Positions 45,270 to 53,005 of a stretch of 54,842 nucleotides of DNA are shown piece by piece. Numbering within the stretch: position 1 is the first letter of the stretch; every line of letters begins with the position of its first letter. The position numbers and the translations under genes are program-made. Source of the DNA: Gammaproteobacteria bacterium (GTDB lineage: Bacteria; Pseudomonadota; Gammaproteobacteria; SZUA-229). The stretch spans positions 1 to 54,842 of the forward strand of contig JAUVDN010000004.1 in NCBI GenBank assembly GCA_030595325.1. The letters run 5' to 3'. The notes beneath the pieces were generated by a model. The model did not search any database, was not told the origin of the DNA, and was given only the letters and a program-made list of their open reading frames with translations.

Positions 45270-45560
45270 ATAGACAGGGTGTGAATTGAATCAGCCATTA
45301 TAAATTTATAGACCACATAATTATAGTTTAGGAATGGAAAAATGGTTGAAATCTAACAAAGTCATCCCAACATTATTCTTATAAGCATATAAATTTTTTT
45401 AATAATTTCAAGCATAGCCCTATTAAAGCTAATGCATTACACAATTATACATTAACCATATGTTTTACATAGTATTTATTTGATACCTATGGTTAGAAAC
45501 GAAGTTTGCATTCGTGCTAATATAGAGTCATTGGTACCAATTATTCGCCGGAGAACATTT
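45270..45560. other. Divergent promoter region HD-GYP / Fe-S carrier
   Basis: About 290 bp between divergent genes. I see no clear gene. The codons 45480-45560 are open in the frame of the next gene but lack a ribosome site, so they are treated as leader. No repressor site can be named with confidence. Confidence 0.3.
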
Positions 45561-45941
45561 ATGTCTCAAGTACAATTTAATTCACAATTAACCAGCCAAA
45601 TTAACGTTTCTGACGAAGCCGTTAAACAGCTGATAGCACTGACTGAAAATGAGGACGGCGTAAACGGTGTTCGTATCTTTGTTTCTGGTGGTGGCTGTGG
45701 TGGCATGTCTTATGGCATGACGTTTGTTGACCAACCAACACCCTTTGATGCAACCCTGGATAAAAATGGTTTAAAAGTGCACGTTGATGCGGTTGCATTA
45801 AGTTTTCTCGAAGGTGTAGAGATCGATTACCAGACAGAAGGTGCCAATGCCAGTTTTGTCTTTAAAAACGTGTTTGCTAATTCCACCAGTGGCGGTTCAT
45901 GTGGCGGCTGTGGTGGCGCATCTGGTGGCGGTTGCGGCTAA
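45561..45941 (+). CDS. A-type iron-sulfur carrier (IscA/ErpA-like)
   Basis: 126 residues from the ATG at 45561, which has GGAG eight bases upstream; a longer frame from 45480 adds no homologous residues. HesB/IscA fold with VSGGGCGGMSYGM (Cys46) as the first ligand. The C-terminus reads SGGSCGGCGGASGGGCG (Cys114, Cys117, Cys125): the usual CGC is replaced by CxxC plus a Gly-rich tail with another Cys. Delivers Fe-S clusters to client enzymes by family knowledge. Not close to isc or suf genes. A strong terminator follows. Confidence 0.85.
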   Translation: MSQVQFNSQLTSQINVSDEAVKQLIALTENEDGVNGVRIFVSGGGCGGMSYGMTFVDQPTPFDATLDKNGLKVHVDAVALSFLEGVEIDYQTEGANASFVFKNVFANSTSGGSCGGCGGASGGGCG

Positions 45942-45971
45942 CACTGCTGGTAAATAGTTTGTATTTATACA

Positions 45972-46001
45972 GGGTGGGCCATAATATGGCCCACCCTTTT
46001 T
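45972..46001 (+). terminator. Rho-independent terminator after the Fe-S carrier gene
   Basis: GGGTGGGCCAT (45972-45982), loop AAT, ATGGCCCACCC (45986-45996), then TTTTT. The 11-bp GC-rich stem is strong. Confidence 0.95.
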
Positions 46002-46017
46002 CATTGCCCATAGAATA

Positions 46018-47277
46018 ATGACAAACAATACCGGTCAACATTTACTGCTGATTTCACATCACAACAGTTACCGTATTGCACCATACATAAAAGCAGCAAA
46101 AAGTCTGGGGCTTGAAGTAACGATAGCCTCAGAAGGAAGCCATTCACTTGTCTCTGAAGTCGCGAGCGGGTTACACATTGACTTCAGTAATTATGACTTG
46201 TCACTTGAAGCAATTATCGCAGAAAATCAACAGCGGTCTTTTTCTGGCATTTTAGGCAGTGACGATCAAACCGTTGAATTAGCCGCACATGTTGCCATGG
46301 CCCTAGGTCTTCCACATAATCCACCAAAAGCGGCATTATGCTCTCATCGTAAAGATCTGGCGCGTGCAGAATTAGCTCTATCAGGCTGCCCGGTACCGAT
46401 TCACTGCCTGCTCGACCTAACGATGCCTTTGCAAAAACAACTGGCAGGTCTACCCTGGCCATGCGTTTTGAAACCACTGAACATGTCAGCAAGCCGGGGC
46501 GTAATTCGGGCAAATAATGAAGAGGAATTCCACCTGGCTTGCGAACGCTTAAAACCAATCGTTGCAACTTCAGCGACAGAATTTGAACAAACACATCTAT
46601 TGATTGAAGATTACATCGACGGCATCGAAATTGCCTTTGAAGGTTATCTACATAAAGGCAGACTGCAGACCATCACCATCTTTGATAAACCCGACCCATT
46701 GGTTGGCCCCTATTTTGAAGAAACCATCTACGTCACACCATCGACACTTGATGTAAAACTTCAACAGTCAATACACTCTGTGATAGAAACAGCCTGTGCC
46801 GCTTATGGTCTGATCACAGGTGCTATACATGCTGAATGCCGAATCGATAGAGAGGATAAAATCTGGATACTGGAAATAGCTTCACGCACCATAGGTGGCG
46901 ACTGCGCACGTATATTGGATAACAAAAATTTTAGTGTGGAAGAACTTGCGATCTCACTGGCCATCAGCCAACCAATCGATGTCAGCATGCCGGAACAGGC
47001 ACGTGGAGTGATGATGATTCCAGTCAGAGAAAAAGGCCTACTAAAACGTGTTGAGGGATTACTTGAGGCCAATAAAACAAAAAACATCGACAAAATCGAT
47101 ATTATTATCAATCAGGGACATGAACTTGTGCCCTTGCCCGAGGGCAATCAGTATCTAGGCTATATCTTTGCCAGCGCTGAAACGCCTGAACAGGTTACCG
47201 CTGCCATCAGGAAAGCCTATGCCCACCTGTCTTTTATTACGGCACCGGTGTTTAATATTAACAACACACTGGCTTAA
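46018..47277 (+). CDS. ATP-grasp carboxylate-amine ligase family protein
   Basis: 419 residues. The N-terminal Rossmann-like lobe (LLLISHHNSYRIAPYIKAAKSLG) precedes an ATP-grasp core: WPCVLKPLNMSASRGV (binding Lys and phosphate loop), LIEDYIDGIEIAFEGYL (adenine/Mg region), ITGAIHAECRI and WILEIASRTIGGD (metal ligands). This is the D-Ala-ligase/BacD-like class of peptide or amino-acid ligases. Substrate unknown. It stands 16 bp after a terminator and ends beside 13-bp repeats, convergent with yggX. Confidence 0.8.
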   Translation: MTNNTGQHLLLISHHNSYRIAPYIKAAKSLGLEVTIASEGSHSLVSEVASGLHIDFSNYDLSLEAIIAENQQRSFSGILGSDDQTVELAAHVAMALGLPHNPPKAALCSHRKDLARAELALSGCPVPIHCLLDLTMPLQKQLAGLPWPCVLKPLNMSASRGVIRANNEEEFHLACERLKPIVATSATEFEQTHLLIEDYIDGIEIAFEGYLHKGRLQTITIFDKPDPLVGPYFEETIYVTPSTLDVKLQQSIHSVIETACAAYGLITGAIHAECRIDREDKIWILEIASRTIGGDCARILDNKNFSVEELAISLAISQPIDVSMPEQARGVMMIPVREKGLLKRVEGLLEANKTKNIDKIDIIINQGHELVPLPEGNQYLGYIFASAETPEQVTAAIRKAYAHLSFITAPVFNINNTLA

Positions 47278-47301
47278 ACGCTGAAGTTTAATATTGAAGC
47301 T

Positions 47302-47347
47302 GAGTATTGAATCTAAGTATTGAATCTAAGTATTGAATCTAAGTATT
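47302..47347. repeat. 13-bp tandem repeat, three copies plus a partial
   Basis: GAGTATTGAATCT (47302-47314), AAGTATTGAATCT (47315-47327), AAGTATTGAATCT (47328-47340) and the partial AAGTATT (47341-47347). It begins 24 bases after the ATP-grasp stop codon. Confidence 0.9.
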
Positions 47348-47379
47348 AAAGCGCAGCGTTGAAATGTAGCCGGGAAAAC

Positions 47380-47673
47380 TTACTTTTTGCCGCCACCACC
47401 GCCAGCCTGAAAACCTGCAGGTACCTGACCGTGATCACCTTCATTGAAAAAGAAACCCACCATATGCTTTTCGATTAATTCGATATTCTTTGTGTCTGCG
47501 GTATTTAAACCATTTTCATTAATGATGGTAGTCAATCGCTCTAGCCACTGCTTCCAGCCTTCTTTTGACACATTTTCAAATATACGCATACCTAAATCAC
47601 CCGGATGTGGTGGTGACTCTAAGGCTTCTGCTTGTATTTTTAAAACTACACACTGAACTGTTTTTGCCATCAT
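47380..47673 (-). CDS. yggX: Fe(2+)-trafficking / oxidative-damage protection protein YggX
   Basis: 97 residues. Matches the YggX family by QCVVLKIQAEALESPPHPGDLG (in part), ISKEGWKQW-type segment (here VSKEGWKQW) and INENGLNTAD, with EKHMVGFFFNEG near the end. The C-terminal tail GGGGGKK is unusual. Met2 (47670) is the better start since GAGG lies seven bases before it. Usually linked to mutY; mutY is not here. Confidence 0.9.
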   Translation of the reverse strand: MMAKTVQCVVLKIQAEALESPPHPGDLGMRIFENVSKEGWKQWLERLTTIINENGLNTADTKNIELIEKHMVGFFFNEGDHGQVPAGFQAGGGGGKK

Positions 47674-47709
47674 TAACCTCTAACCTACTCATCTTCTTTA
47701 AATCTAGTA

Positions 47710-48771
47710 TTAATCTTCGTACTTTTTCAACAATACGCCTTCATCACCGCAGCAACTGGCTGCGCATTGTTTAATCTGATGTAACTCTTCTTCTGAGCCA
47801 TTTAAATAAACATCTATTGGCTGATTTTCAGTGGCACAGTCACAACCCTTGTCATTATACACATAAACACTATTCAACCCGGCTCGTTTGGCCTGAGCTT
47901 CAGCGCCATATAACATATGCTCGGGCGTTTCCGGCACATCACTGAGCTTATATGCAGGGAAAAATCGTGTTACATGCCACGGACTATCAACACCCAGATT
48001 ATCTCTGATCCAGCATGCAATTTCATAATGCTCCTCAGGATCATCATTTTTACCCGGGATGATATTAGTCCGGGTTTCTACGTGTATACCTAAATCATGC
48101 GCCTTTTTAATTGAAGCCAAAACTTCTTTGACCTTAGCCGGCCGGCAGATATCTTTGTAGAAATCATCTTGCATACTCTTGATATCTGAGCACAGCACAT
48201 CGACCTTGCCGACCAGCAACTCTAATGCTTCATCGGTCACATAACTATTAGAAACATATACCGTGTACAAACCAGCCTCATGAGCGAGCTCACAAACATC
48301 AAGCACGTATTCCAACCAGACTGCTGGCTCTGAATAGGTAAAGGCAATACCTTGAACACCTGCTGTCAGTGCAGCATCAACAAGCTTTTGTGGCGGCACC
48401 CAAGCTTCCTTTGATTGCCCTTTAGCAAGGTTATCCAGCGCTTCCACACCCCATGATATTTCCAGGTTATGACAACCGCCACAACGAAAACTGCATCCGT
48501 AGCTACCAACAGACATTACTTTTGTTCCCGGGCGATAATGCTTTACTGGTTTTTCTTCGATATAGTCGATATCAATTGCAGAAAGTATTCCGTAGGAAAG
48601 GTTATATAACGTGCCATTCCTGTTCACATGCGCCTGGCAGAAACCACGCTGACCATGACTTATCTTGCAACGCCACAAACACAGGTTACAGCGTGTTGTG
48701 CCATTTTCCATTTTTTCCTGCAGACATGTTTCGACTAACTGGTATTGTTCTGTTTGTTTTTGATCAGTCAT
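47710..48771 (-). CDS. amrS: AmmeMemoRadiSam-system radical SAM enzyme AmrS
   Basis: 353 residues. The radical SAM triad is Cys93, Cys97 and Cys100 (CSFRCGGC), and an N-terminal cysteine cluster (Cys28, Cys31, Cys35, Cys45) binds a metal or second centre. SYGCSFRCGGCHN, SNSYVTDEAL and PWHVTRFFPAYK are marks of the PflA-like AmrS group. The usual partners (AMMECR1-like and Memo-like proteins) are not in this window, so it is an orphan here. Reaction unknown. Precedes yggX by 36 bp, follows a formyltransferase-like gene by 30 bp. Confidence 0.85.
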   Translation of the reverse strand: MTDQKQTEQYQLVETCLQEKMENGTTRCNLCLWRCKISHGQRGFCQAHVNRNGTLYNLSYGILSAIDIDYIEEKPVKHYRPGTKVMSVGSYGCSFRCGGCHNLEISWGVEALDNLAKGQSKEAWVPPQKLVDAALTAGVQGIAFTYSEPAVWLEYVLDVCELAHEAGLYTVYVSNSYVTDEALELLVGKVDVLCSDIKSMQDDFYKDICRPAKVKEVLASIKKAHDLGIHVETRTNIIPGKNDDPEEHYEIACWIRDNLGVDSPWHVTRFFPAYKLSDVPETPEHMLYGAEAQAKRAGLNSVYVYNDKGCDCATENQPIDVYLNGSEEELHQIKQCAASCCGDEGVLLKKYED

Positions 48772-48801
48772 GAAATAACCAGAGTTTGTTTATAAATGCA
48801 T

Positions 48802-49665
48802 TTAAAAAGGCAGTTTACCAGTGTATGTTGCACATAATATACCCTCATTAAAAGGGATATAAAGGCGATTATCCTGCACTTCCACCGTATCAATATGGGC
48901 ATTATTGTCATAATTAAGCGCTTTTTCGAGCAAAAAATGCTGATTTTCAAGCTGGCAATGATACGGATAGCCAAACGCACGTGTTGCCCGCATGAAGTCG
49001 TAAGCATGCTGCGCCGTCCATGACGTTTCTATCATAAAATCCTCTTTAACAGGATAGGGAAAATAACTGGCCAATGTTGAATCTTGTACAGATTTATTAA
49101 GCGTTCCAGTCGATAGTGCAGATAACAGATTAAGCATTAAATCAGCACCTACTTCTGCTAACTGATGATTAATTTCTGAGTAACTGGCACCCTCATCCAG
49201 ATTCACTCTTTGTTGTAGCGCAATAGCACCCGCATCAAACTCATGTTCTATCTGATGCCAACTTACACCTGTATCACTTGCTTGTTTCATCTGCCAGAAT
49301 ATCGGCTCAGGGCCACGGAAGCCCGGCAATAATGAAGGGTGCAGATTAAAACATCCATGAGCAGCAATTTTAAGCAGAGCATCTGGTAGACGTTTGTTGT
49401 AACAAGACATTAATACAACGTCGATAGAAAACTGCTCACACTGTTGAATCACATCCTCGACAGATGCGGATAAATCAATTATTGGTATTTCAAAATGATT
49501 TGCAGCCAGCGCTAACGATTCATTTTCTATTGCTATTAATTTTTGATCAATAATGATGGGATTATTAACACCAACAACAGAGAGTGAATGTTGTGACGAT
49601 GACAATAACTTTTTAAATGGAAGCAGTGATAATGCACCTGATGAACCGATATAAAAAATGTTCAT
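48802..49665 (-). CDS. Formyltransferase-family protein (methionyl-tRNA formyltransferase-like)
   Basis: 287 residues. The catalytic Asn107, His109 and Asp144 appear in FNLHPSLLPGFRG and EFDAGAIAL, as in 10-formyltetrahydrofolate enzymes. The C-terminal region (about 200-287) is short and lacks the typical tRNA-binding lobe, so it may not be the tRNA enzyme. It may act on a sugar or amine. It is 42 bp behind the DsrE-like mini-gene on the same strand and 30 bp ahead of amrS, a possible operon. Confidence 0.75.
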   Translation of the reverse strand: MNIFYIGSSGALSLLPFKKLLSSSQHSLSVVGVNNPIIIDQKLIAIENESLALAANHFEIPIIDLSASVEDVIQQCEQFSIDVVLMSCYNKRLPDALLKIAAHGCFNLHPSLLPGFRGPEPIFWQMKQASDTGVSWHQIEHEFDAGAIALQQRVNLDEGASYSEINHQLAEVGADLMLNLLSALSTGTLNKSVQDSTLASYFPYPVKEDFMIETSWTAQHAYDFMRATRAFGYPYHCQLENQHFLLEKALNYDNNAHIDTVEVQDNRLYIPFNEGILCATYTGKLPF

Positions 49666-49707
49666 AGATATACCACACTGTTTTACAGCAAGCTTAAAAT
49701 TAGCCGT

Positions 49708-49881
49708 CTATAAAGTAATAATCTGATCTGGCATATTGCCTGATAGCGCGTCATATAGATTAGGAAAACAACCGACAACTTCAACACCATGTACATCATC
49801 TTCAAGTTGAGGAAGAATCATTTTCCCTAATTTATAAGATACCGAATGTCCCTGTGTTGAAAATATGTAGGCAACTTTCAT
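49708..49881 (-). CDS. DsrE-related (SaoD-like) mini-protein, apparently collapsed by deletion
   Basis: 57 residues in an intact frame from ATG 49879-49881. The N-terminal half (MKVAYIFST, SYKLGKMILPQLED, HGVEVVG) and the C-terminal half (GCFPNLYDALSGNMPDQIITL, residues 37-57) both look like the two ends of longer DsrE-related proteins (about 130 aa). The middle, including the usual cysteine region, seems missing, joined neatly at VVG/GCFP. So this is either a degenerate relic or a minimal new protein. An AG-rich stretch (AAAGG...GAG) precedes the ATG. A 10-bp dyad sits upstream. Confidence 0.6.
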   Translation of the reverse strand: MKVAYIFSTQGHSVSYKLGKMILPQLEDDVHGVEVVGCFPNLYDALSGNMPDQIITL

Positions 49882-49905
49882 AGCTCTAGCCTTTATAATT
49901 AATTT

Positions 49906-49940
49906 TATCGATAGTGTTTCTTACTGGACTACTATCGATA
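49906..49940. promoter_or_regulatory. 10-bp inverted repeat upstream of the DsrE-like mini-gene
   Basis: TATCGATAGT (49906-49915) and ACTATCGATA (49931-49940) are perfect reverse complements with a 15-bp spacer. No T-run follows, so it is not a terminator. It could be an operator for the minus-strand gene starting at 49881. Confidence 0.4.
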
Positions 49941-50041
49941 TTGATTACTCGTACCCGCGAAAGTCTAAAACAATTTTTTAATTTACAACAATAAGCTACA
50001 ACCCATCAAAACAAACGGCTTATTTTTTAATGGCTAGATAG

Positions 50042-53005
50042 CTATAACGTGATTACATCCATTCCTAAGTCACCCACTTCCTCTTGTGTTGCGGCACTGG
50101 TAATAACAGCGACACTTGCTTCACCATTTTTGAGATATGTTTCTGTTACACGTTTTAAATCATCAATAGTTACTTTAAGTACTTGCTGTCTGTACCTCTG
50201 TAGTTTATCTCGGGTCCGACCATGCAACTCATTATGAAAGGCTGATCGAGCTTCACCGGCAGGTGAACCCGGTTTATCCATACCACCGATTACGCCGAGA
50301 ATTGCTTCTTCTAACTGACGCTCTTCATGTTCGTTATCAAGTATCCAGTCTATAGCCGAATCAAAATCTTCTAGCGTTTCACTCAAGCGAGGGTCACGGT
50401 AAGAATAAAACTTGAATGCAGCAATATTGGTATCCTGTGTTGCACCACCGCCATACGCACCACCCTGCTCTCGTACTGCCGTATGTAAATAACCATTCCT
50501 CATAAAACCACCTAATACAGACAATGCTGCAGCATCTTCATGCTCCATAGTCACTGTCGGGTAAGCTTTTGCACAGAAATTAACCTGTGTATTAGCAATC
50601 CACATCTGTTTTGTTTGTTGTTTTATTTCAGGCAGTGTAAACGACTCATAACTAGCAGATTCCTGCTGCTGCCAAACCTGTTCAAATTCTTTAACCGTTT
50701 TGTCAAGCTTGTCTGATTCCAGCGTCAACATATAAGTTTTCGCAGAAGCCTTTATTTTTTCGTGAATAGAAGCAAACAATTTAGTCGTTTTATTTAATGC
50801 TGTTTTGTCACTATGTGAATCATCAAGTGCTTTTAATGATTTAATACCTGCAAGCCCACCGAAAGTGTGACTAAGAGAAGCAACAGGGCTCATGCCGCTA
50901 GCTGCTGCAGTCATGGCTAATGAGTGACCACTGCCCGTTACACTGCGCTCGCGACGCGAACGCATCTGGGTAATCAGTTCAGCTATCCGATCTTCTTCAT
51001 CAAAACGCACAGTATTTAATGTGTCACTCATCAATTGGGCTAAATTTATATTATTTCTGTTCAGCGCCTTACCTGAGAAAAAGAAATACGCACGAATTTT
51101 TTGCTCATCATCAGTGAATGCACGAACACTGTACGCAGCATGTACTCCGCCACTAACACTGGACTGCCTTTCCTGAATCTGCATGTAATCAGCATCACCA
51201 CAGCCTAGCTCTGTCAGACAAGATGAGTAATAAGGCAACAAAGCAAGCTCATCATCACTCAATGCTGGCAAGTCACAGATAACTTCATGATAAACAAGCC
51301 CATTAGTTCCCTGTTCGAATACAGAGGATTCAGTACCTGAGATTTTTAGGTTGTTCGCCTGAGGAATCTTCATCTCTGCAGGAACGTCGCTCAGATCCAC
51401 CTTAGGTAAAACACCAGGGTCATCTTCCTGCGTCTGACGTTCTGCTAATGCTGCAGCCTGTTCGATAAGTTTCTGTTTATCATCATCACTCATCGATTGA
51501 TTGATTTCAGCCAGATGTGCTTTTTCTGCCAGTTCTTTACGTTGGCTTAGTTCATCATCTGGACGCAGTGTTAAACGAACACGATGTTGATTATCAAGCA
51601 GCAGCTCACGAACCAGGTTCTTAATAAATTCTGGATCCTTGATATCTTCACGTAGAGATTCGATTACAGGATCAAGGTTTAACAGTGAGGCTGGATCGCT
51701 ACGATGGATTGCGGCAGTTAATCCGCTTAAGATCAATTGCAGACCAAAGGGGTAACTGTCGCCACCGACTTCTCTCTGACTCAATTCAAGTTGATGCAAT
51801 ACAGCTTCTAATTTTTCATGCGGTACACCATTATCCGCAACATCATTTAAAACATCTAAAACCAGCTTTTCAAAGCCTGCTGCATTGTCTACTTTACTGC
51901 CTTCGATACCGCACAAAAAACACATCTCATAATTAGAGTCCTCAAGACCGCATAACGGTGATGGCGCAGCGCCCAATTCCGTTTTTTCTAAGGCCTGGCG
52001 CAATGGTGATGAACTGTTATCCAATAATACCTGTGATAACAGATTAGCCTTCATCATGTCATCCAGTGAAGTGCAAGGCCCCAATAACCAGCTCATCACA
52101 TGGTGTGTTTTATCTTCGATGGTATCATCACCAACTAAATCGTAAGCATAAGCTTCTTCGACGACAAGTGGTGCAAGGTATCGTTTTTCAGGTTTAACAG
52201 AAATTTTTACATCTAATTTTTCAAACTGATCCAGCGCCTGCTCTTCAAATTTTTTCTGATGTTCATAAACCGGGATATCACCAAACGTCATAAAAACAGC
52301 ATTGCTCGGATGATAATGTGTCTGATGGAAATCTTTTAACTGCTGATAAGTCAGGTCAGGAATATCCTGCGGTTCACCACCACTATTGTAATGATAAGTC
52401 GATGTTGGATATAGATAAGTACTTACCTCCTGCCACAGCACACTGACGGGGGAACTCATCGCGCCTTTCATCTCATTGAACACAACGCCCTTATATTCAA
52501 GTTCACTGTCAGCATTACCTTCTTCTTTAAATTCAATACGGTGGCCTTCCTGTAAAAAGTCCAGCTCGTCTAGACGCGTAAAAAATACAGCATCAAGATA
52601 TACGTCCATGAGGTTATTGAAGTCTTTAACATTCTGACTGGCAAACGGATATGCGGTCCAGTCGCTGCTAGTAAAAGCGTTCATAAAAGTATTCAGGGAA
52701 CGGCGTATCATCATAAAAAACGGATCGCGTACCGGGTATTTTTTACTTCCGCAGAGCGAAGTGTGCTCCAAAATATGAGCGACACCTGTGGAGTCCATCG
52801 GTACCGTTCTAAAAGCAACTAAAAAAACATTCTCAGTATTTTCGGCTTCCATGTGATAATGAAGCGCACCCGTTTTTACGTGCTGGTATTCCTGTAAGGT
52901 TAAATTCAGAGACGGGATATGCTCACTGCGTATCCATTTAAATGCAGGGTGATGTTTTACAGCTGGTGCAGCTGATGAAGACTCTTGTGACATTACAGAT
53001 GACAT
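50042..53005 (-). CDS. M16C insulinase-family zinc peptidase (presequence-protease-like)
   Basis: 987 residues. The inverted zinc motif HILEH is at 77-81 with the third ligand Glu about 80 residues on. HTSLCGSKKYPVRDPFFMM and the NTFMNAFT segment are typical of the PreP/CYM1 group (M16C), which has four domains in one chain, matching the length. In the cytosol or periplasm it degrades peptides. No signal peptide is seen. Start uncertain: Met1 (53005) or Met5 (52993), both weakly supported. Confidence 0.93.
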   Translation of the reverse strand: MSSVMSQESSSAAPAVKHHPAFKWIRSEHIPSLNLTLQEYQHVKTGALHYHMEAENTENVFLVAFRTVPMDSTGVAHILEHTSLCGSKKYPVRDPFFMMIRRSLNTFMNAFTSSDWTAYPFASQNVKDFNNLMDVYLDAVFFTRLDELDFLQEGHRIEFKEEGNADSELEYKGVVFNEMKGAMSSPVSVLWQEVSTYLYPTSTYHYNSGGEPQDIPDLTYQQLKDFHQTHYHPSNAVFMTFGDIPVYEHQKKFEEQALDQFEKLDVKISVKPEKRYLAPLVVEEAYAYDLVGDDTIEDKTHHVMSWLLGPCTSLDDMMKANLLSQVLLDNSSSPLRQALEKTELGAAPSPLCGLEDSNYEMCFLCGIEGSKVDNAAGFEKLVLDVLNDVADNGVPHEKLEAVLHQLELSQREVGGDSYPFGLQLILSGLTAAIHRSDPASLLNLDPVIESLREDIKDPEFIKNLVRELLLDNQHRVRLTLRPDDELSQRKELAEKAHLAEINQSMSDDDKQKLIEQAAALAERQTQEDDPGVLPKVDLSDVPAEMKIPQANNLKISGTESSVFEQGTNGLVYHEVICDLPALSDDELALLPYYSSCLTELGCGDADYMQIQERQSSVSGGVHAAYSVRAFTDDEQKIRAYFFFSGKALNRNNINLAQLMSDTLNTVRFDEEDRIAELITQMRSRRERSVTGSGHSLAMTAAASGMSPVASLSHTFGGLAGIKSLKALDDSHSDKTALNKTTKLFASIHEKIKASAKTYMLTLESDKLDKTVKEFEQVWQQQESASYESFTLPEIKQQTKQMWIANTQVNFCAKAYPTVTMEHEDAAALSVLGGFMRNGYLHTAVREQGGAYGGGATQDTNIAAFKFYSYRDPRLSETLEDFDSAIDWILDNEHEERQLEEAILGVIGGMDKPGSPAGEARSAFHNELHGRTRDKLQRYRQQVLKVTIDDLKRVTETYLKNGEASVAVITSAATQEEVGDLGMDVITL

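Follow-up and report, generated by a model that had tools for sequence, protein, structure and literature searches.

Does the 57-codon open reading frame that lies between a peptidase gene and a formyltransferase-like gene in the window (the whole stretch of 54,842 nucleotides analysed here) encode a small protein in its own right, or is it what remains of a larger gene? The frame is on the minus strand, with a start ATG at 49881 and a stop TAG at 49708, and its 57-amino-acid product is MKVAYIFSTQGHSVSYKLGKMILPQLEDDVHGVEVVGCFPNLYDALSGNMPDQIITL. An earlier note, made from the DNA letters, had described it as an in-frame collapsed DsrE/SaoD-like gene, and this description is confirmed by a split match to the SaoD/DsrE family profile NF040913 (125 positions), in which profile positions 1–36 and 104–125 are matched and 37–103 are skipped, and by alignment with intact 112-codon relatives, from which exactly 165 nt (55 codons) are absent while the remainder is colinear. 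The N- and C-terminal segments of the family are thus both present, and the 57-mer joins residues 1–37 of the 112-amino-acid protein to its last 20. The whole protein matches the profile with an E-value of 1.7e-21, far beyond chance, but its 76.3 bits do not reach the curated cut-off of 152 bits; since the score is half of that cut-off, annotation pipelines would miss the gene. Proteins of NF040913 have 112–125 amino acids; the window gene shares with them its two ends, the start context and its place in the genus's gene row, but differs in having about half the cut-off score, no predicted fold and none of the middle 55 residues. The deleted segment includes positions that never vary in the aligned homologues (35 of 35), among them both cysteines of the central CxxC (72/75 of the long form). 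No further DsrE copy was found in the window genome.

The join falls in a VVG / (V,I)G-CFP string, in agreement with the earlier proposal of a fusion at a repeated VVG/VGC string, and the open frame with its candidate ribosome site, also noted earlier, is as described (Table 1). Intact DsrE genes are preceded by a similar purine-rich site. The dyad reported upstream is real as well; its perfect arms occupy 49906–49915 and 49931–49940 and form a pattern that the window contains only once, and no pair of arms of at least 8 nt was found upstream of the DsrE gene in the four relatives examined. A scan for promoters and terminators gave matches at chance level.

Table 1. Features at and around the collapsed gene (positions in the window; strand as given)
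Feature	Position	Strand	Basis
AmrS-type radical SAM protein	47710..48771	-	TIGR04337, 224.5 bits vs cut-off 220
Formyltransferase-like protein (Formyl_trans_N), downstream neighbour	48802..49665	-	profile match
Collapsed SaoD/DsrE gene, 57 codons (residues 1–37 and 93–112 of the 112-aa form)	49708..49881	-	NF040913 pieces and alignment with intact relatives
Deletion join; 165 nt missing, exact break ambiguous within a shared GG(N) codon	49770..49774	-	alignments
AAAGG candidate ribosome site, 8 nt before the ATG	49882..49897	-	sequence
Perfect inverted repeat, 10-nt arms TATCGATAGT...ACTATCGATA, 15-nt spacer	49906..49940	.	sequence
Peptidase (presumably M16-type), conserved upstream neighbour	50042..53005	-	synteny

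The state of the gene in close relatives bears directly on the question. The family of the window genome comprises the same 54 genomes as its order in the collection used, and its genus comprises 18, the window genome included. A full-length match is present in 14 of the 54. Within the genus eight genomes have an intact gene, one (the window genome) has the collapsed form and nine have no match. Where it can be read, the place of the intact gene is between the M16 peptidase and a row of formyltransferase, AmrS and YggX genes. The earlier note had suggested looking for a full-length gene at this same place in relatives; it is found there, which favours the gene being a relic. The gap between peptidase and formyltransferase could be read in five of the nine genomes without a match (80, 129, 34, 163 and 45 nt in G006, G011, G013, G014 and G017, respectively) and holds a full gene in none of them; among the other four, the contig of G016 ends there, and in G003, G007 and G009 a close formyltransferase match is lacking. 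The G006 gap (L041:124-203) retains a frame-broken DsrE tail that reads DQVITL-stop and is identical to an intact tail at 19 of 24 nt, a match equalled by none of 1000 shuffles. The gene has been lost repeatedly in this genus, and intact, collapsed, tail-only and absent states are all visible in it. In two genomes that lack DsrE, the gap is occupied by inverted repeats that are imperfect and look like small dispersed elements (L042:5977-6105 and L043:1964-2126).

In structure prediction, the collapse also removes the fold of the intact protein. AF2 models an intact relative with a pLDDT of 91.9 and a pTM of 0.84, and the model matches YchN, TusD and DsrE (1jx7, 2d1p_A and 2hy5_A; Foldseek E-values 7.8e-7 to 1e-5). 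The 57-mer has no confident fold (pLDDT 59.3, pTM 0.37); the alignment behind this prediction had a depth of 36 rows, and chimeras of this kind may be difficult for AF2, which is why we count the result as moderate evidence. By comparison with the YchN/TusD/DsrE structures, the mini-protein would lack strands 3 and 4 and most helices, and the five-strand alpha/beta fold is not predicted for it.

How old is the deletion? At 4-fold sites, 0.60–0.65 differ between the window genome and every same-genus genome compared, and the 57 retained codons differ from those of the nearest relative (L049) by 22 silent and 2 amino-acid changes; two residues of the window copy are seldom seen at their positions, each of which is variable. 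With free drift over the entire branch the protein sequence would be random by now, and therefore either the deletion is young or the product is under constraint; both fit these data alike. A nucleotide tree of the gene places the window copy beside L080 (support 70) and a second collapsed copy, described below, beside L071 (support 83), so that neither groups with the genus and the two are kept apart. Taken at face value this tree would speak against simple descent within the genus, but with saturated sites, long branches and 171 usable nt we distrust it, and descent was judged instead by place and residues, by which L049 is nearest.

Other collapsed copies are rare. A class-wide sample of 369 genomes contains 29 full-length genes, two collapsed ones (in the window genome, G000, and in G141) and one fragment (G263), and a phylum-wide sample of 398 genomes contains one full-length gene besides the window copy. 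No further collapse was found in the orders of G386, G410 and G263 (40, 23 and 2 genomes, respectively), and a scan of contigs from 134 relatives kept 80 loci, of which 79 are intact, one is frameshifted and none is collapsed, with the caveat that the peptide patterns used would miss a sequence like that of G141. Viral contigs gave no relatives (two pattern matches encode nothing related), and among the plasmid matches listed, 31 records align with the N-terminal part at most and none covers at least 80% of the query. Nothing on a DsrE family protein with an in-frame deletion was found in the PMC literature.

The copy in G141 comes from a genome that is 88% complete, belongs to another family and is the sole member of its order in the collection. 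It encodes the 57-amino-acid MTIAYIFSSQGHTVLFKRGKVILPQLENDTHGVEVVGCFPGLYAALAGNSPGQVITL (L140:7505-7675), which is 72% identical to the window mini-protein, has the same length and has the identical join, VEVVG|CFP. Its surroundings are different; it is flanked by a peptidyl-prolyl-isomerase-like ORF (named by eye) and an ORF that matches no Pfam family, and four G141 neighbours tested against all other loci in the set gave no match. Because both residues and place differ from those of the window copy, the G141 deletion is most likely an independent event. This copy carries 10 rare residues, against 0 to 7 in the 89 intact 112-amino-acid homologues. It changes K2, V3, S15, L18, M21 and D52, each of which is invariant in 89 of 89 intact homologues, and its G41 and S50, at variable positions, are also never seen there, which brings the unseen residues to eight. 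It differs from its nearest homologues by 12 amino-acid and 24 silent codon differences, and among intact pairs whose silent count is similar, 11.6% show as many amino-acid differences; it is where the changes fall, not their number, that suggests a relaxed rather than a preserved sequence.

We think it probable that the window gene is the relic of a recent in-frame deletion. A 165-nt deletion would have cut the middle out of a working 112-amino-acid gene of the SaoD/DsrE family, taking with it the second half of strand 2, helices, strand 3 with the CxxC, and strand 4. It may have arisen by slippage over a short repeat, and presumably after the species split from its sequenced relatives, so that the start site, frame and tail would still be present because little time has elapsed. 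Any product would probably be unfolded and non-functional. We count two things against this reading. The intact frame, start and ribosome site and the undisturbed retained residues are equally expected of a functional small protein, and the same join, which has no preferred microhomology, recurs in another family. That identical join stands as the only element without an explanation. Its exact microhomology spans 2–6 nt across the 89 homologues (mostly 2–4, at least 5 nt in 16), and the median gene has 141 longer repeats. Under a model of random in-frame deletions that leave 20 codons at each end, the mean probability of this exact join is 0.0005 unweighted and 0.002–0.0055 when each shared base is given a weight of 2 to 4, and the largest value for any single gene, under strong microhomology bias, is 0.024. 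So low a chance, together with one architecture in two lineages and an open frame and start kept in both copies (the window copy being undecayed beyond its two variable sites), is what speaks for a functional miniature of strand-helix-strand-helix-strand form that kept a role, for example as a binding partner of the full-length hexamer or as a sulfur acceptor via Cys38, and was selected independently in each. We nevertheless regard such a miniature as unlikely, given the loss of the CxxC, the absence of a confident predicted fold, the altered invariant residues of G141, the different neighbours of the two copies and the lack of a collapsed gene among the 80 loci kept in the contig scan (subject to the bias of its patterns); that two unrelated bacteria cut out the same 55 codons since the miniature itself is useful seems more doubtful still. 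The join comparison was, moreover, made post hoc, after the data were seen, and its count is of one join common to two of the five damaged copies observed (the G006 tail excluded).

The relic reading has a variant that would need no selection at all, with the same mutation arising more than once. The VVG-(M)F / (V,I)G-CF repeat might slip often and have left two independent relics; the join does lie in a repeated codon string with up to 5–6 nt of exact microhomology in some homologues, and decay of the DsrE gene is common, three other copies (G263, G815 and L136) being frameshifted, truncated or stopped. The microhomology is nevertheless short beside the many longer repeats in each gene, and a hairpin that would bring the deletion ends together was considered and rejected, as DNA folding leaves them apart in 10 of 11 homologues tested (in the exception, L088, it pairs near the ends). 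We consider such a hot spot highly improbable. An assembly artefact is hardly credible, even though both genomes look like draft metagenome bins (122 contigs for the window genome and ~160 for G141); the join shares at most 6 nt, assemblers usually work with words far longer than that, and two separate genomes show the join with different sequences. As a relic the gene would record gene loss in progress, which is nothing unusual, though here it forms part of a series visible in one genus. Were the miniature useful, new small proteins could arise from a hexameric sulfur-carrier fold by a route that can be repeated, and should selection lie behind the G141 collapse, nature would have supplied a clear example of internal deletion giving rise to a new small protein.

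The neighbouring genes had been noted as a possible formyltransferase-AmrS operon that includes the mini-gene. A conserved co-directional row does exist in the family, but its members are lost independently. The formyltransferase scores below every specific NCBIfam cut-off (for fmt, 106 vs 201.5 bits) and carries NLHPSLLP and FDAGA, which we take to be the catalytic Asn-His-Asp pattern. The AmrS was correctly called an orphan; it is just over its TIGR04337 cut-off, and no match to a Memo or AMMECR1 partner was found in the genome (83% complete), so that of the AmmeMemoRadiSam set (AmrS, Memo and AMMECR1) AmrS alone was found. Across the collection, 94 distinct full-length DsrE genes were obtained from 138 of 144 loci with a match (134 of those intact by a length rule). 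A close AmrS lies on the same strand within 4 kb of 12 of the 94, of which 11 also have a formyltransferase; YggX and the peptidase are each found near 11. Apart from L083, a named contig in which the row recurs, these loci belong to genomes of the family; outside those genomes the full-length DsrE gene has other surroundings. DsrE is gone from genomes that keep formyltransferase and AmrS (G017 among them), and G019, in which DsrE adjoins AmrS, and likewise G033 have no formyltransferase match at 1e-4. DsrE and formyltransferase have been lost independently of each other, and because each is lost without the other, a joint DsrE-formyltransferase-AmrS pathway is not established. Searches of the PMC literature found nothing on the function of this row, and for SaoD, the matches listed were all unrelated.

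In the window the peptidase-DsrE-formyltransferase-AmrS-YggX row faces an ATP-grasp and an IscA-type gene (45480–53005), an arrangement that is conserved across the family. By eye, a TATTGAATCTAAG-like unit recurs as short tandem repeats at 47293–47350, in the stretch that separates YggX from the ATP-grasp gene, and the contig end (54555–54842) resembles, again by eye, repeated-element sequence (GCGGGTCCCGCCCCGC, AAAAAAGTAACCAAAAAAGG).
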